NCBI RefSeq assembly: GCF_021731785.1
Contig: NZ_JAKFWS010000142.1
Coordinates: 1-36,034 of the forward strand
Direction of reading: 5' to 3'
Source: Methylocystis sp.
Lineage (GTDB): Bacteria > Pseudomonadota > Alphaproteobacteria > Rhizobiales > Beijerinckiaceae
DNA: 36,034 nt
In this document: positions 1 to 7,299 of the stretch, piece by piece
Position numbering within the stretch: the stretch's first letter is position 1
How the letters are laid out: each line of letters starts with the position of its first letter
Position numbers and translations under genes: made by a program
Notes under the pieces: model-generated
The model's input: the letters and a program-made list of their open reading frames with translations, nothing else
Databases searched by the model: none
What the model was told of the DNA's origin: nothing

Positions 1-1872
<1,872 letters not shown>

Positions 1873-2493
1873 TTTCACCTCCATGACGAGAGCCGCGGCA
1901 AGCCGGGCGCCGTCGCCAATATCTATGCATCCTCCGCCAGAGGCGAAGAGACGCCTCGACCAGCGCGGGATGAGATTAGAAGTAATCTAGGTCAGGATGG
2001 CGCAATCGCCAAACGGGCGTCACAATTCGCCAAAAGAAGACACGGATGCGCTGTGTCGCCGCCGGCTAAACAAATGCTTCGGCTCAGCTTTCTTCGACCG
2101 ACCGAGCCCTTGCCGGTAGCCTTGTCAGGATGGCGTCAGGCGCCTCTCCGGCTTTGGCGCGAGTCAAAAGTCAGAACATGACAGCCGGTCGCGGCGCGAG
2201 CGACGACATGCTCGCCGAGAGCGGCGAGGCGGCGCCTCAAAGTAAAGCTTATGTTGCTGACGGATAATCGTCATTGCGGCGCACAGACGCCAAAAACTTG
2301 GCCAATTAGTCATTGATTGAAATCGGGTTAATGGCTCTCTGCCGATTTGGCGGGCCGATTGATGAGCGGCAATGCAGGTGCATCGCAACAGCTTTTCCCA
2401 CTTGGCTAATTTCAGAGTCGATGCGCTAATTTGTCGCGCCTGCTCTAGATGCGGTCATTCATTCCCCGGGCAGCGAGCCATAGGATAGAACCC
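1873..2493. other. Long non-coding stretch upstream of ftsH
   Basis: No gene of normal size is supported here on either strand. The part next to ftsH should carry its promoter, but I cannot point to a clear -35/-10 or heat-shock promoter. It contains the dyad listed at 1973-1988 and a direct repeat of GCTAATTT at about 2404 and 2430. A 29-codon frame starting at 2178 has no ribosome site. The base composition is a little more AT-rich around 2240-2340 than in the neighbouring genes. tilS, the usual upstream neighbour of ftsH, is absent. Confidence 0.6.
1973..1988. repeat. Inverted repeat in the ftsH upstream region
   Basis: AGATTA and TAATCT are perfect 6-bp arms separated by GAAG, about 100 bases upstream of the ftsH start. 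It stands out as an AT-rich dyad in GC-rich surroundings, as repressor or activator sites often do. No regulator can be named; chance cannot be excluded for 6-bp arms. Confidence 0.3.
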
Positions 2494-2702: not shown

Positions 2703-3353
2703 TCAGCGCCCGCGAAAGCGTGCGCTTTCGAGATTGGCCAAATTGACAAGCCGGCAAGCGTCCGCGCCGGCGAGATAGGAAAATTGCGCGTCCATCGCGG
2801 CGCCGACTTCATAAAGAGCGACACATATCTCCTCGCCGTCCAAGCTCATTGGCGGCGTTAACGTTTCACCGGCGCAGCCGCGAAAAGACAGCAATCTGTG
2901 CGCACCGCTGTCGAAAACGCCAATCACATGCGTCAGCGCAGCGGCCTGCGCGATCTCATTCAACGCAACGCCTATTTCGCCGACGGCGCGATCGATGATC
3001 TTTTCCTGGGCCTGACAATTTTCGATCGCCTCGAGCGACAGGCCACTCGCTTCCCAGATCAGCGGACTTTCAATTCGCAGAGACTGCGGCGCGCTTGCCG
3101 CGAAAGCGTCGTTCAACATCGTCACGCCGGTCGTCGGCAAAAGCCTCAGCGCGCCGACGATGCGTTCTGCATCATTAATCGCAAGAACGTAAAGCGGATC
3201 GAGCGAATCAAAATAATCGACGACCGACAGTCGACTGACTGCGCCCAACGGGCGATCGAGACGGGCCCGAGCCGCGCTCAGGCGCAGGTCATACATTTCG
3301 TCGGCGAGTCGAGGAAAGAGCGCGCGCGATTCGCCGGGAAGCAGCGCAATCAT
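2703..3353 (-). CDS. Divergent LuxI-family N-acyl-homoserine lactone synthase
   Basis: LuxI-type enzymes make acyl-homoserine lactone signals from S-adenosylmethionine and an acyl-ACP or acyl-CoA. The start ATG at 3353 is chosen because it overlaps the luxR stop as ATGA and gives the family's usual N-terminus (MIALLPGESRALF); a longer frame to 3428 lies inside luxR. Length 216 residues is normal. Recognisable landmarks by eye: Arg24, Asp46 and Asp49 in VDYFD, the block GALRLLPTT with Arg70, Phe84, and Glu101 in WEASGL. Odd points: the family's near-invariant Phe28 is Ala28, Trp34 is Arg34, the Glu43 position is Val44 and the Arg following the WE motif is Gly104. The fold call is confident, but activity, substrate and product are uncertain; it could make an unusual signal or be inactive. 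A 7-bp hairpin (2682-2704) overlaps its stop codon. Confidence 0.82.
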   Translation of the reverse strand: MIALLPGESRALFPRLADEMYDLRLSAARARLDRPLGAVSRLSVVDYFDSLDPLYVLAINDAERIVGALRLLPTTGVTMLNDAFAASAPQSLRIESPLIWEASGLSLEAIENCQAQEKIIDRAVGEIGVALNEIAQAAALTHVIGVFDSGAHRLLSFRGCAGETLTPPMSLDGEEICVALYEVGAAMDAQFSYLAGADACRLVNLANLESARFRGR

Positions 3354-4141
3354 CGCTCGCGCCAGTCGATCGAAGCCGCGAGCCGAATCGGTTCGAACGA
3401 CGGACAAGGCGGCTCCGCGCCACGCCACATCGAACCTGTTCCAACCGCTTTTTGGACAGCAGCATCGACGGTGGGGGCGTCAAGCCGCGCACGCGCCGTC
3501 TCCATCCAGAACCGCGCCGCGCTCGAGCTGGCACCGATGGCGAGACCAATCTCGTCGTCGGTTTTTCTCAAAGCCTTGAGGCGTAGACAGGCAAGCTCGC
3601 GGTCCATCAACTGGTCGCTGCGCGAATCTCTAGCCGACGAGCCGCGTCGCACCATCGCGTGGAAGATCGCGCTCGCGATCATGAGCCGGCGCGTCACAGC
3701 ATGGCGCGACATTTCCGAGGCGCCGGATCCTCGGACGCAAACGCTGAACAATGCGTATTCGCCATCGCAGCCGCGCAACGGGATGGAGACACCATTCGAG
3801 TCGACATCGAGTTCGAGCGCTTCGCCGAGCAGTTTTCGAATGATCGGATCGTCACGCTCCAAAGCGCCCCAGCGCACAGGCGCTATGCCGCCCAAACCGG
3901 CGCGTAGAAGCGGCCCGAGGTCGACGCGGCCGGACTGGACATGAAGCTTACGCCAGGACGGGCCGCAAGCAGCAGAAAGCAGAGGCCGGCCGACGACGCC
4001 CGTCAGGAGATTGAAGGCGACATAAGCGACGTCGGCGAGGTCCGTCGCACGCAGGAATTCGTCGAGGAAGCTGTTGAGAATGGATCGTCTGTCGGCGCGC
4101 GCGAGCCGGTCGATAAGATCGAAAACGTCTTCGCAATACAT
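3350..4141 (-). CDS. LuxR-family regulator with autoinducer-binding domain
   Basis: 263-residue regulator with an N-terminal autoinducer-binding domain (about residues 15-165) and a C-terminal LuxR-type helix-turn-helix (about 178-235). Family landmarks seen: Trp63, Trp91, Gly117 in NGVSIPLRG, and Glu182 and Leu186 in the HTH. Unusual substitutions against TraR/LuxR: the Tyr61 position is His67, the ligand-contacting Asp of the DP pair is Gly76, and the conserved Gly of the HTH is Arg192. The recognition helix reads SSSAARFW instead of the usual TVxxH pattern. It ends in a 30-residue tail. The stop overlaps the luxI start (ATGA), so the two are co-translated. It has no good ribosome site at 4141, but an in-frame TGA just upstream limits the start. 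Ligand and targets are unknown; self-regulation through the dyad at 4174-4198 is an inference. Confidence 0.85.
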   Translation of the reverse strand: MYCEDVFDLIDRLARADRRSILNSFLDEFLRATDLADVAYVAFNLLTGVVGRPLLSAACGPSWRKLHVQSGRVDLGPLLRAGLGGIAPVRWGALERDDPIIRKLLGEALELDVDSNGVSIPLRGCDGEYALFSVCVRGSGASEMSRHAVTRRLMIASAIFHAMVRRGSSARDSRSDQLMDRELACLRLKALRKTDDEIGLAIGASSSAARFWMETARARLDAPTVDAAVQKAVGTGSMWRGAEPPCPSFEPIRLAASIDWRER

Positions 4142-4173: not shown

Positions 4174-4202
4174 CTAATACAGCGCTGGTCCGTATCAGGC
4201 AA
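4174..4202 (-). promoter_or_regulatory. Candidate promoter and overlapping dyad upstream of luxR-luxI
   Basis: On the minus strand TTGCCT (4202-4197) and TATTAG (4179-4174) are separated by exactly 17 bases, a plausible sigma-70 promoter (4 of 6 matches in each box). A dyad overlaps it: CTAATAC at 4174-4180 and GTATCAG at 4192-4198, with 6 of 7 positions paired across an 11-base centre. The -10 box lies inside one arm. It sits 33-57 bases upstream of the luxR start, where a lux-box-like operator would be expected, although the 25-bp span is longer than a classical lux box (18-22 bp). Confidence 0.45.
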
Positions 4203-4246: not shown

Positions 4247-4278
4247 AAAAAAAGAGCCCGGCGTTGGCCGGGTTCTTT
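4247..4278 (-). terminator. Rho-independent terminator of the outer-membrane protein gene
   Basis: Read on the minus strand, AAAGAACCCGG pairs with CCGGGCTCTTT (11 bp with one G-U pair) around a 6-base loop, followed by a T-rich run. It begins 23 bases after the barrel gene's stop and separates it from the luxR promoter downstream. Confidence 0.85.
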
Positions 4279-5683: not shown

Positions 5684-6274
5684 TCATAGCGCTTTACTGT
5701 AGTCGAACCTGTCACATTCGCCATCGGATGCAGCCAGCCGCTCGGCCGAGCCCAGGCGCCAGCCATCATCCGAAGCTTCGCAGGCTTTTTCGGACGGCGT
5801 CCACGAAGCGAGGAGGTCGAGTCGCCCGATCGGGCAAAGTCCCAGCCACGTTAGCGGCTGAACCGGCGCAAGCGACCCGAGAACGCGCGCACATCTGTTG
5901 CCGAAATGGCGCAAAGGCAAGAGCAGAAGTTCGAATTCAGCCCGTTCGCCGGCCCCCGCGCAAACAGCATGCGCCAAGAGAGGCGTTTCCTTGAAGATGA
6001 CCTGGCGAACCGCCTCGCCAATGTCGTGACGATACTGGGCTGTCCACCAGCTCAGGAACGGGCGGCCCTTCTGGTCGTCCAGCCAGAGCGCGTTCACCCG
6101 CGCGCCGCAAAGCCGAAGCGGAAAGCGGTGCTCGACATCCACTTCGATGATGAATGTGTCCGCCAGGATATGGCGAATCGCAACGGGGTCGATGTCCGCT
6201 CGATCCGGCGCCCTCCGTTCGCCCTTCAGCTGATCCCAATAGTCGTGAAGATTCCTCGTAACCGGCAATTTCAT
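5684..6274 (-). CDS. PAS_5-type PAS-domain protein
   Basis: 196-residue soluble protein resembling the single-domain PAS_5 family (PF07310) common in Rhizobiales. The core (about residues 5-150) includes LHDYWDQLKGERRAPDRADI, then DPVAIRHILADTFIIEV, the RLCGARVNALW segment and an LLPLRHFGN strand; these are characteristic of the family. No kinase, GGDEF or output domain follows, so it is likely an adaptor or sensor in a regulatory pathway; function is unknown. The start at 6274 begins the conserved N-terminus; longer frames run upstream into low-complexity Arg-rich sequence. The C-terminal 45 residues are not conserved to my eye. It is divergent from the rhomboid gene. Confidence 0.75.
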   Translation of the reverse strand: MKLPVTRNLHDYWDQLKGERRAPDRADIDPVAIRHILADTFIIEVDVEHRFPLRLCGARVNALWLDDQKGRPFLSWWTAQYRHDIGEAVRQVIFKETPLLAHAVCAGAGERAEFELLLLPLRHFGNRCARVLGSLAPVQPLTWLGLCPIGRLDLLASWTPSEKACEASDDGWRLGSAERLAASDGECDRFDYSKAL

Positions 6275-6603
6275 CTGAATTCGCCCGACGCTTGCGCGCC
6301 CCTGCCCAGGATTGGCACGCCGCCCCCGCAGCCTTGCATCTGCTCGCCTAAACAGCAGGGGTCGTGCCATCGCCACAGCGGCGGATTCGGCGCTGACGCC
6401 GGGCTGTTCGCCAATGCAAAAAAGAGCAGCTAAAGCAGGAAGCTGCAGCGTCTATTGGCGTTGTTCCGATCCCTCGGTCGTCTACCATGCAGTTTCGCCG
6501 CCGCCGACGGGCGCTTCAAATCGGGACGCTCGCCGACTCCGCTCGCGCTAGATTAGCATTGAGGCTCTGCGGGCCTTCGCCAGGCAGACGGACAGGAGCG
6601 CAC
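6275..6603. other. Divergent intergenic region between PAS and rhomboid genes
   Basis: 329 bases between two diverging starts, so it should hold both promoters. I find no strong promoter boxes, hairpin or small ORF with a good ribosome site. The last bases include AGGAG at 6594-6598, the ribosome site of the rhomboid gene. Confidence 0.5.
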
Positions 6604-7299
6604 GTGGCCGCACAGCGCGAACGGATTTTCAATTTGCCGAAAGTGACGAAGACGCTCATCTTCGCGTTGACGGCCATACAGTTTGTCGTCGCCTACGCTC
6701 CTGCGGACTTCGCTCAGTGGCTGTTGGCGACATTCGCCTTCATCCCGGCGCGCGTGACGACCGAAGGCGGCGTCGAATACGCCACCATGCTGACCTATGC
6801 TTTTCTGCATGGCGACTGGACGCATCTCGTGGTCAATGTGTGCGCCCTCGCCGCCTTCGGAACGCCGGTCGAACGGCGATTCGGCTCGGCGCGCTACCTA
6901 CTCTTTCTCGCTGCGAGCGCAATTTCCGGCGCGCTGTTCTTTTTTGCGCTGCATCCTTACGAGATCGCCCCGGTTGTCGGCGCATCTGGCGCAATCTCAG
7001 GAACAATGGGCGCGATCGTGCGTTTCGCATTTACGCCAGGAGCGCGACTGGCGGACGAAAGGGGCAATCCGCGGGCGCCATACGACGAGGGACCGGGTTC
7101 CACTTCGCTGTCGCAATTGCCGCTCAACCGGCAGGCGATGTTTTTCCTCGTTGCATGGCTAGCGGCGAACTTGCTTCTTGGCGCATTTCCGCAGGCGGCC
7201 GGCGCGTCGAGCGCCATCGCCTGGGAAGCGCATATCGGGGGATTTTTGTTCGGCCTGGTCTTTTTCCGTTTTTTTGATTGCGTGGGCCGATATCCTTAA
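6604..7299 (+). CDS. Rhomboid-family intramembrane serine protease
   Basis: 231-residue polytopic inner-membrane protease that cleaves transmembrane segments of other proteins. The catalytic dyad is visible: Ser128 in GASGAISG and His210 in EAHIGGF. The conserved loop motif is WTHLVVN at residues 72-78 (His74, Asn78). About six hydrophobic segments are predicted from the sequence, with a soluble insertion at about 145-172 before the last two. The GTG start at 6604 is chosen for its AGGAG ribosome site at 6594-6598; the frame is open further upstream but without support. The CBS-domain gene follows 60 bases downstream in the same direction and may be cotranscribed. Substrate unknown. Confidence 0.92.
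   Translation: MAAQRERIFNLPKVTKTLIFALTAIQFVVAYAPADFAQWLLATFAFIPARVTTEGGVEYATMLTYAFLHGDWTHLVVNVCALAAFGTPVERRFGSARYLLFLAASAISGALFFFALHPYEIAPVVGASGAISGTMGAIVRFAFTPGARLADERGNPRAPYDEGPGSTSLSQLPLNRQAMFFLVAWLAANLLLGAFPQAAGASSAIAWEAHIGGFLFGLVFFRFFDCVGRYP

Follow-up and report, generated by a model that had tools for sequence, protein, structure and literature searches.

Receptors of the LuxR type hold the amide of acyl-homoserine lactones (AHLs) through a conserved Asp (D70 in TraR numbering), and FeeM, an N-acyl amino acid synthase with a LuxI-like fold, uses acyl-ACP without S-adenosylmethionine (SAM). FeeM is among the entries tabulated in PMC9654057. Phe28 and Trp34 of the LuxI family are termed absolutely conserved in PMC3704786, and in LasI (Arg23, Phe27, Trp33) the equivalents of these two residues are described as crucial for SAM binding (PMC4655403). 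The account of CepI in PMC6079302 assigns loop 30–41 a role on the SAM side, with negligible activity of a Glu29-to-Gln mutant and only a small drop in kcat for some mutants of the SAM-side region. For the receptors, PMC4338825 gives nine invariant residues (W57, Y61, D70, P71, W85, G113, E178, L182 and G188, TraR numbering), describes the lux box as a 20-bp palindrome and proposes non-AHL ligands as possible for LuxR solos with altered D70; positive autoregulation is presented as common for LuxI-family synthase genes (PMC10790750).

The window, i.e. the whole 36,034-nt stretch of Methylocystis sp. DNA that was analysed (GCF_021731785.1, contig NZ_JAKFWS010000142.1), carries a luxR-luxI-like pair in which key residues of both families are replaced. 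The features given below with coordinates all lie on the minus strand. The luxR-like gene (3350..4141; 263 aa, with a PF03472 domain at residues 25–161) is followed by the luxI-like gene (2703..3353; 216 aa from the ATG at 3353), the luxR stop and luxI start overlapping in an ATGA (3350..3353). An alternative GTG start for luxI at 3428, present in the list of open reading frames, is unnecessary, as all 13 relatives of the same divergent type align from the ATG at 3353. The upstream flank is an outer-membrane beta-barrel (porin) gene (PF13505; 4301..5209), separated from luxRI by a terminator-like hairpin 3′ of the porin gene (4257..4272), and a promoter-like element recognised by sequence conservation, TTGCCT-N17-TATTAG, is found upstream of luxR (4174..4202). 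Downstream lies ftsH (Peptidase_M41, AAA, FtsH_ext; 1..1884, clipped by the window edge). Both flanking genes are common to canonical Methylocystis loci.

Family membership of the two proteins is clear in Pfam, with 52.2 bits for LuxI against PF00765 (cut-off 24) and 38.6 bits for LuxR against PF03472 (cut-off 23); the PF00765 cut-off is exceeded by 7/7 divergent LuxI proteins scanned. Best PDB matches are LasI for the former (E 7.9e-6) and, for the latter, 3szt (E 1.3e-4), a quorum-sensing control repressor that we take to be QscR. PHROGs gave a single weak match, for LuxR, and every NCBIfam match was far under its cut-off. AlphaFold2 applied to the window LuxI and six relatives reached a pLDDT of 46.8, too poor for pocket inspection or fold search. 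The window's genome has two PF03472 genes, the second being a solo on another contig (C7), and one PF00765 gene in total; redundancy through a second luxI was considered and rejected on this PF00765 search.

Comparison of 39 genomes of the genus Methylocystis, including the window's own, identified one luxI homologue each in 26, none with internal stops, comprising 14 of a divergent type (the other 13 with 64–83% LuxI identity to the window) and 12 canonical (42–50%). A porin-family ORF lies upstream in 12/14 divergent and 8/12 canonical regions; on the downstream side, 9/14 and 10/12, respectively, have the ftsH neighbourhood, several regions being clipped by contig ends. In an rpoB tree of 33/39 genomes, 13 of the 14 genomes with the divergent pair are placed on one side with support 1.0, together with G020, G029 and G030, which lack luxI; the remaining divergent-pair genome, G027, has no rpoB and is therefore outside this tree. 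Support is low (0.53) for placing G020 and G030 in the half of the clade that contains the window. In the LuxI tree the divergent sequences form a clade (UFBoot 98) whose stem measures 0.86 substitutions per site and which belongs to a joint Methylocystis group (UFBoot 84); its attachment within the canonical set, beside G037, is at odds with the rpoB tree and may reflect long-branch attraction. From the shared flanks and the two trees, the divergent pair is the in-place orthologue of the ordinary Methylocystis luxR-luxI, its clade-wide changes having been acquired jointly, in a single event on the stem of the clade.

In both the LasI alignment and the family alignment, the window LuxI has Ala28, Arg34 and Gly104 in the columns of Phe28, Trp34 and Arg104, and retains Arg24, Asp46, Asp49, Arg70, Phe84, Glu101 and Ser103. 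No shifted equivalents of Phe28, Trp34 or Arg104 appear in a proper alignment, which excludes misalignment. Phe28 is absent from all 14 divergent proteins (Ala in 11, Val in two, Ser in one), as is Trp34 (Arg in 12, His and Gln in one each), while all 12 canonical proteins retain Phe28, Trp34 and Arg104. Arg24, Asp46, Asp49, Arg70, Glu101 and Ser103 are present in 14/14 divergent proteins. Gly104 is private to the window, the other 13 having Arg; its codon is GGC, compared with CGC in the two nearest relatives, a difference that could be an assembly error. Counting LuxI sites with at least 94% conservation among 33 other homologues (partial sequences L045 and L053 excluded) gives 38, of which every divergent protein retains 19, and positions 28, 34, 36, 43, 87 and 172 are lost in all 14. 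The SAM-loop segment (codons 24–49; 3207..3284) also contains a one-residue insertion in the divergent proteins.

The window LuxR retains 6/9 invariant family residues, with His67, Gly76 and Arg192 in the alignment columns of TraR Y61, D70 and G188. Asp76 is gone from all 14 divergent proteins (Glu in nine, Ala in three, Gly in two), Tyr67 from five and the helix-turn-helix (HTH) Gly192 from four, all with Arg192, in the window's subclade; loss of Gly114 is seen in the window alone. For LuxR, 43 sites reach at least 90% conservation among 32 other homologues; 20 are kept and seven lost in all 14, the latter including the ligand Asp and three HTH-region sites (188, 201, 224). The GerE HTH domain scores 41.8–46.3 bits in 3/3 canonical LuxRs scanned versus above the 23.5-bit cut-off in only 1/7 divergent LuxRs (27.8 bits), and Pfam gave no GerE match in the window LuxR. 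A preliminary description of the pair had listed replacements in both proteins from the window alone, and every residue it named is as stated in the LasI, TraR-column and family alignments. It gave its six changes equal standing, but the losses of Phe28, Trp34 and Asp76 extend to the whole clade (14/14), whereas Gly104 (1/14), Arg192 (4/14) and the loss of Tyr67 (5/14) do not.

Loss of the lux-box-like palindrome and of the region between the two genes, not visible from the window alone, is the strongest functional clue. Canonical loci have a luxR-luxI spacer of 57–129 nt containing a lux-box-like palindrome, the 20-bp ACCTCCCATTTTYGGGAGGT and variants, which starts 77–85 nt upstream of luxI and is clear (0–1 mismatches) in 11/12 loci; three of these genomes (G003, G018 and G019) have two boxes each. 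At the corresponding position G037 has a match with 4 mismatches, which alone is no better than chance. Set against the lux-box consensus, the ACCT-N12-AGGT form of the palindrome fits a lux box, and it is presumably bound by LuxR. In all 14 divergent loci the best box match has 4–7 mismatches, at scattered positions. A whole-genome scan allowing up to one mismatch found the box in 11/12 canonical genomes and 1/14 divergent ones (G021, at a site outside the luxRI locus), with no match in the window's genome; a reversed control pattern gave one match in 39 genomes. The ATGA coupling of the window is shared by 11/14 divergent loci in total; luxR of G005 and G013 stops 46 nt earlier. Upstream of luxR, TTGCCT-N17-TATYA is found in 14/14 divergent and 0/12 canonical loci. 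This element was not reported by the promoter scan tool, and its conservation suggests that it is a promoter. A conserved 27-codon frame facing luxI is present at 14/14 divergent and 11/12 canonical loci.

We favour, with moderate confidence, a reading in which one ancestral remodelling ended canonical autoinduction and left a maintained, relaxed pair with altered or weak signalling. As the sequences show, this event removed the palindrome and spacer, with luxR and luxI becoming one, mostly overlapping, operon. LuxI also had its SAM-loop aromatics replaced, and LuxR its amide-contacting Asp together with much of its DNA-binding domain. Transcription would probably be from a constant promoter upstream of luxR. 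The LuxI-like protein is most likely still a folded acyltransferase, with the acyl/catalytic face largely intact and the SAM site weakened or altered, and its acylated product would be made at low level and without autoinduction. Any reading of this product by the LuxR-like protein would not involve the ancestral DNA site. The pair is a maintained yet dispensable trait that part of the lineage has lost.

The pair is missing in 3/17 clade genomes and is therefore dispensable in this lineage. In G020 the porin and ftsH flanks are present but the pair is not, G029 retains only residues 1–57 of luxR, with a porin copy ~150 nt further on, and G030 has no luxI genome-wide, its locus being clipped by a contig end. 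Irregular copies include that of G021, whose luxR lacks 18 residues in frame within the ligand domain, and that of G028, where luxR continues into luxI in a single open frame, either genuinely or through an error in the draft. Both luxI and luxR are open in 14/14 divergent genomes; the preliminary description was right that both proteins had changed with both genes intact, and disruption of the frames in most relatives is not seen.

Both genes are under purifying selection, at a clearly relaxed level. Maximum-likelihood codon models gave an omega of 0.311 for luxI and 0.311 for luxR across the 14 divergent genomes, compared with 0.062 and 0.051 across 10 canonical genomes (G018, with a short luxR and a near-copy of G019, and the deep G037 being omitted). 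Omega = 1 was rejected for both genes (2dlnL 58–122, with kappa scanned on a grid), and strongly so in both halves of the divergent clade. Pairwise estimates, for which G007 was also omitted, are 0.26–0.36 versus 0.115 for luxI and 0.39 versus 0.09 for luxR, with high canonical dS (medians 1.06 and 1.43) that makes the canonical omega values less reliable; the divergent pair thus exceeds the canonical one five- to sixfold in the maximum-likelihood values and two- to fourfold in the pairwise values. The opposite trend is seen for rpoB (0.030–0.035 divergent versus 0.077 canonical) and ftsH (0.024 in five divergent genomes versus 0.063 in seven canonical ones), so the relaxation is not genome-wide. 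Two flanking genes in the divergent group, encoding a PAS protein (0.35–0.41) and a rhomboid protein (0.24–0.28), are as loosely constrained as luxI. Single changes on the window branch number 5 nonsynonymous and 16 synonymous in luxI (change ratio 0.11) and 21 and 28, respectively, in luxR.

Slow joint decay, in which the circuit became useless after loss of the lux box and both genes drift under weak residual constraint toward loss, is possible, although we consider it less likely. It would account for the raised omega of both genes, counter to the rpoB and ftsH trend, the eroded LuxR HTH domain, the absence of the pair from G020, G030 and (apart from the luxR remnant) G029, the joint frame of G028, the early luxR stops of G005 and G013 and the luxR gap of G021, as well as the further loss of Gly192 within the window's subclade and two losses private to the window, LuxI Arg104 and LuxR Gly114. 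However, it fits poorly with the strong rejection of omega = 1 in both halves of the clade, the low luxI ratio on the window branch, a luxI that is open in every divergent genome with its six clade-wide residues in place, and the promoter-like element kept in 14/14. Joint decay, one of two options offered in the preliminary description, fails in its strict sense because both genes reject omega = 1, but the relaxed constraint (0.31 versus 0.05–0.06) is real and the pair has gone from 3/17 genomes. The data neither establish nor refute the other option, a pair co-evolved for an unusual signal, and the preliminary interpretation as a whole is partly supported.

Ordinary AHL quorum sensing could also persist at this locus if the losses are tolerated, with the enzyme joining SAM to an acyl thioester and LuxR using new DNA sites, which we judge improbable. 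Family scores still over the Pfam cut-offs, the several catalytic-face residues kept, the CepI SAM-side mutants with little loss of kcat and the existence of LuxR solos with a changed D70 are all consistent with it. The wider family argues the other way. In an order-level background of 50 sequences (30 best-scoring and 20 hand-chosen weak matches from the low end of the search, out of matches in 111 genomes), Phe28, Trp34 and Glu43 are kept in 30/30 of the best-scoring LuxI matches and Arg104 in 28/30, the remaining two being cut by internal stops. Phe28 is also found in 17 and Trp34 in 16 of the 20 weak matches, one of which is truncated in this region; the two lowest-scoring have Tyr at position 28 and may belong to another subfamily. 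Because all 30 of the best order-level matches keep both residues, their absence from the divergent clade is not a matter of chance. Position 30, which probably corresponds to CepI Glu29, is Ala in 14/14 divergent proteins and acidic (Asp or Glu) in the 10 canonical genomes used for comparison. The description of Phe28 and Trp34 as absolutely conserved (PMC3704786), with LasI equivalents crucial for SAM (PMC4655403), and the joint change of both partners and the DNA site also weigh against ordinary AHL signalling.

Conversion of the AHL circuit in place is a speculative possibility to which we give very little weight. The enzyme would have given up SAM and kept its acyl-transfer face, acylating another amine (e.g. 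an amino acid, as in a FeeM-like reaction), and LuxR would sense the non-AHL product. Loss from LuxR of the Asp that holds the AHL amide would be in keeping with this. The LuxI losses are also concentrated on the SAM side, where 4/7 conserved sites in residues 24–49 (28, 34, 36, 43) are lost in all 14 proteins compared with 2/31 elsewhere, most other conserved sites being kept (Fisher p 0.006, for a segment picked after the alignment had been seen, guided by PMC4655403 and PMC6079302). However, conservation of the SAM loop within the clade is loose: its pN/pS is 0.43, compared with 0.10 in canonical genomes, and it is no better conserved than the rest of LuxI, residues 1–23 being tight (0.16). 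This pattern favours a SAM site released from constraint over a new one under sharp selection. If conversion were nevertheless true, an AHL circuit would have been turned into a different signalling chemistry, with the canonical sister lineages as built-in controls. Two further candidates can be set aside: horizontal replacement by a foreign pair is rejected for now, with flanks common to canonical loci and a LuxI tree that groups the clade with Methylocystis, and a pseudogene pair is ruled out by an open luxI in 14/14 genomes, an omega of 0.31 and rejection of omega = 1.

The remodelled, maintained pair has observations against it as well. The lax SAM loop is what would be expected if SAM chemistry had ceased to matter, and the 3/17 absences, the G021 gap, the Arg104 change in the window, the omega values of the PAS and rhomboid genes and the failure of the scan tool to report the promoter-like element also count against it.

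Searches for literature on Methylocystis together with LuxI found none (most subscription papers being outside their scope), and titles and abstract openings on methanotroph AHLs, missing conserved residues and degenerate luxI gave no description of such a pair. The surprise, beyond two odd proteins, is an autoinduction circuit dismantled in place in one methanotroph lineage with both genes open and constrained. Set beside canonical sister species with the same locus, the 14-genome clade is a natural experiment that asks which components of an AHL circuit are dispensable, those lost here being the box, the SAM site of the synthase, the receptor contact and the HTH. LuxI-like function without the SAM-loop aromatics thereby becomes testable, as does whether quorum sensing has been converted or abandoned in these ecologically important methanotrophs.

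Compared with known systems, the divergent LuxI resembles synthases of the LasI/EsaI/TofI type in its PF00765 domain and in the Arg24, Asp46, Asp49, Arg70 and Glu101 columns, but has lost Phe28 and Trp34 clade-wide and, in the window, Arg104. The window LuxR similarly shares with QscR/TraR/LasR-type receptors (PF03472 plus GerE) a PF03472 domain over the cut-off and six of the nine invariant residues, but is without the Tyr, the Asp and the HTH Gly, and its HTH is not recognised by Pfam. LuxR solos with altered D70 have the same change at this position in a retained domain; unlike them, the divergent LuxR has a luxI-like partner gene in the same orientation. With its LuxI-like fold and use of acyl-ACP without SAM, FeeM is a possible functional model for the divergent LuxI. 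The canonical Methylocystis pair itself (G003, G012, G023 and others) has the same locus, gene order, orientation and family domains as the divergent pair, but differs in retaining Phe28, Trp34 and Arg104, the LuxR Asp, a full GerE HTH and a spacer with the palindrome, all under stronger constraint.

Facing luxI in the window is a 27-codon frame (2494–2577, + strand; MNAISAILSIFAAAAAITLAITAIVNA), probably encoding a small membrane peptide, which is kept in all 14 divergent loci, those whose luxR-luxI pair has lost conserved residues, and in 11 of the 12 canonical loci, which carry an ordinary pair. The DNA surrounding this frame is also retained in two genus genomes that have lost luxRI, G020 and G029. 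G029 has a deletion at the locus (L166:966–1698), where luxR residues 1–57 remain and a second porin copy follows ~150 nt further on, an arrangement perhaps generated by recombination of tandem porin genes with each other. In G028, a single uninterrupted open frame spans luxR and luxI (L059:688–2136), possibly a natural LuxR-LuxI fusion or a frame error of the draft assembly. Neighbours of luxRI in the window include genes for a PAS_5 protein (5684–6376, − strand) and a rhomboid protease (6487–7299, + strand), for which omega (a measure of constraint) is also rather high in the window's lineage.

The window's genome has no PF00765 (LuxI family) gene other than the window copy. It also encodes a LuxR solo (contig C7, L146:9070–9900), with good matches to PF03472 (autoinducer-binding) and GerE (HTH); a VirB4-like (TrbE/VirB) gene lies ~1.4 kb away and a second type IV secretion gene is also nearby. 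The lux-box-like palindrome preceding canonical luxI has additional copies distant from luxI in L175 (G007), L182 (G023) and L186 (G012), which may be other targets of canonical LuxR; two of these three regions, L175 and L182, look by eye like putative prophage.

At order level, proteins of L221 (G375) and L222 (G399) match PF00765 very weakly; they carry Tyr at position 28, lack Trp34 and possibly represent a distinct LuxI-like acyltransferase subfamily.
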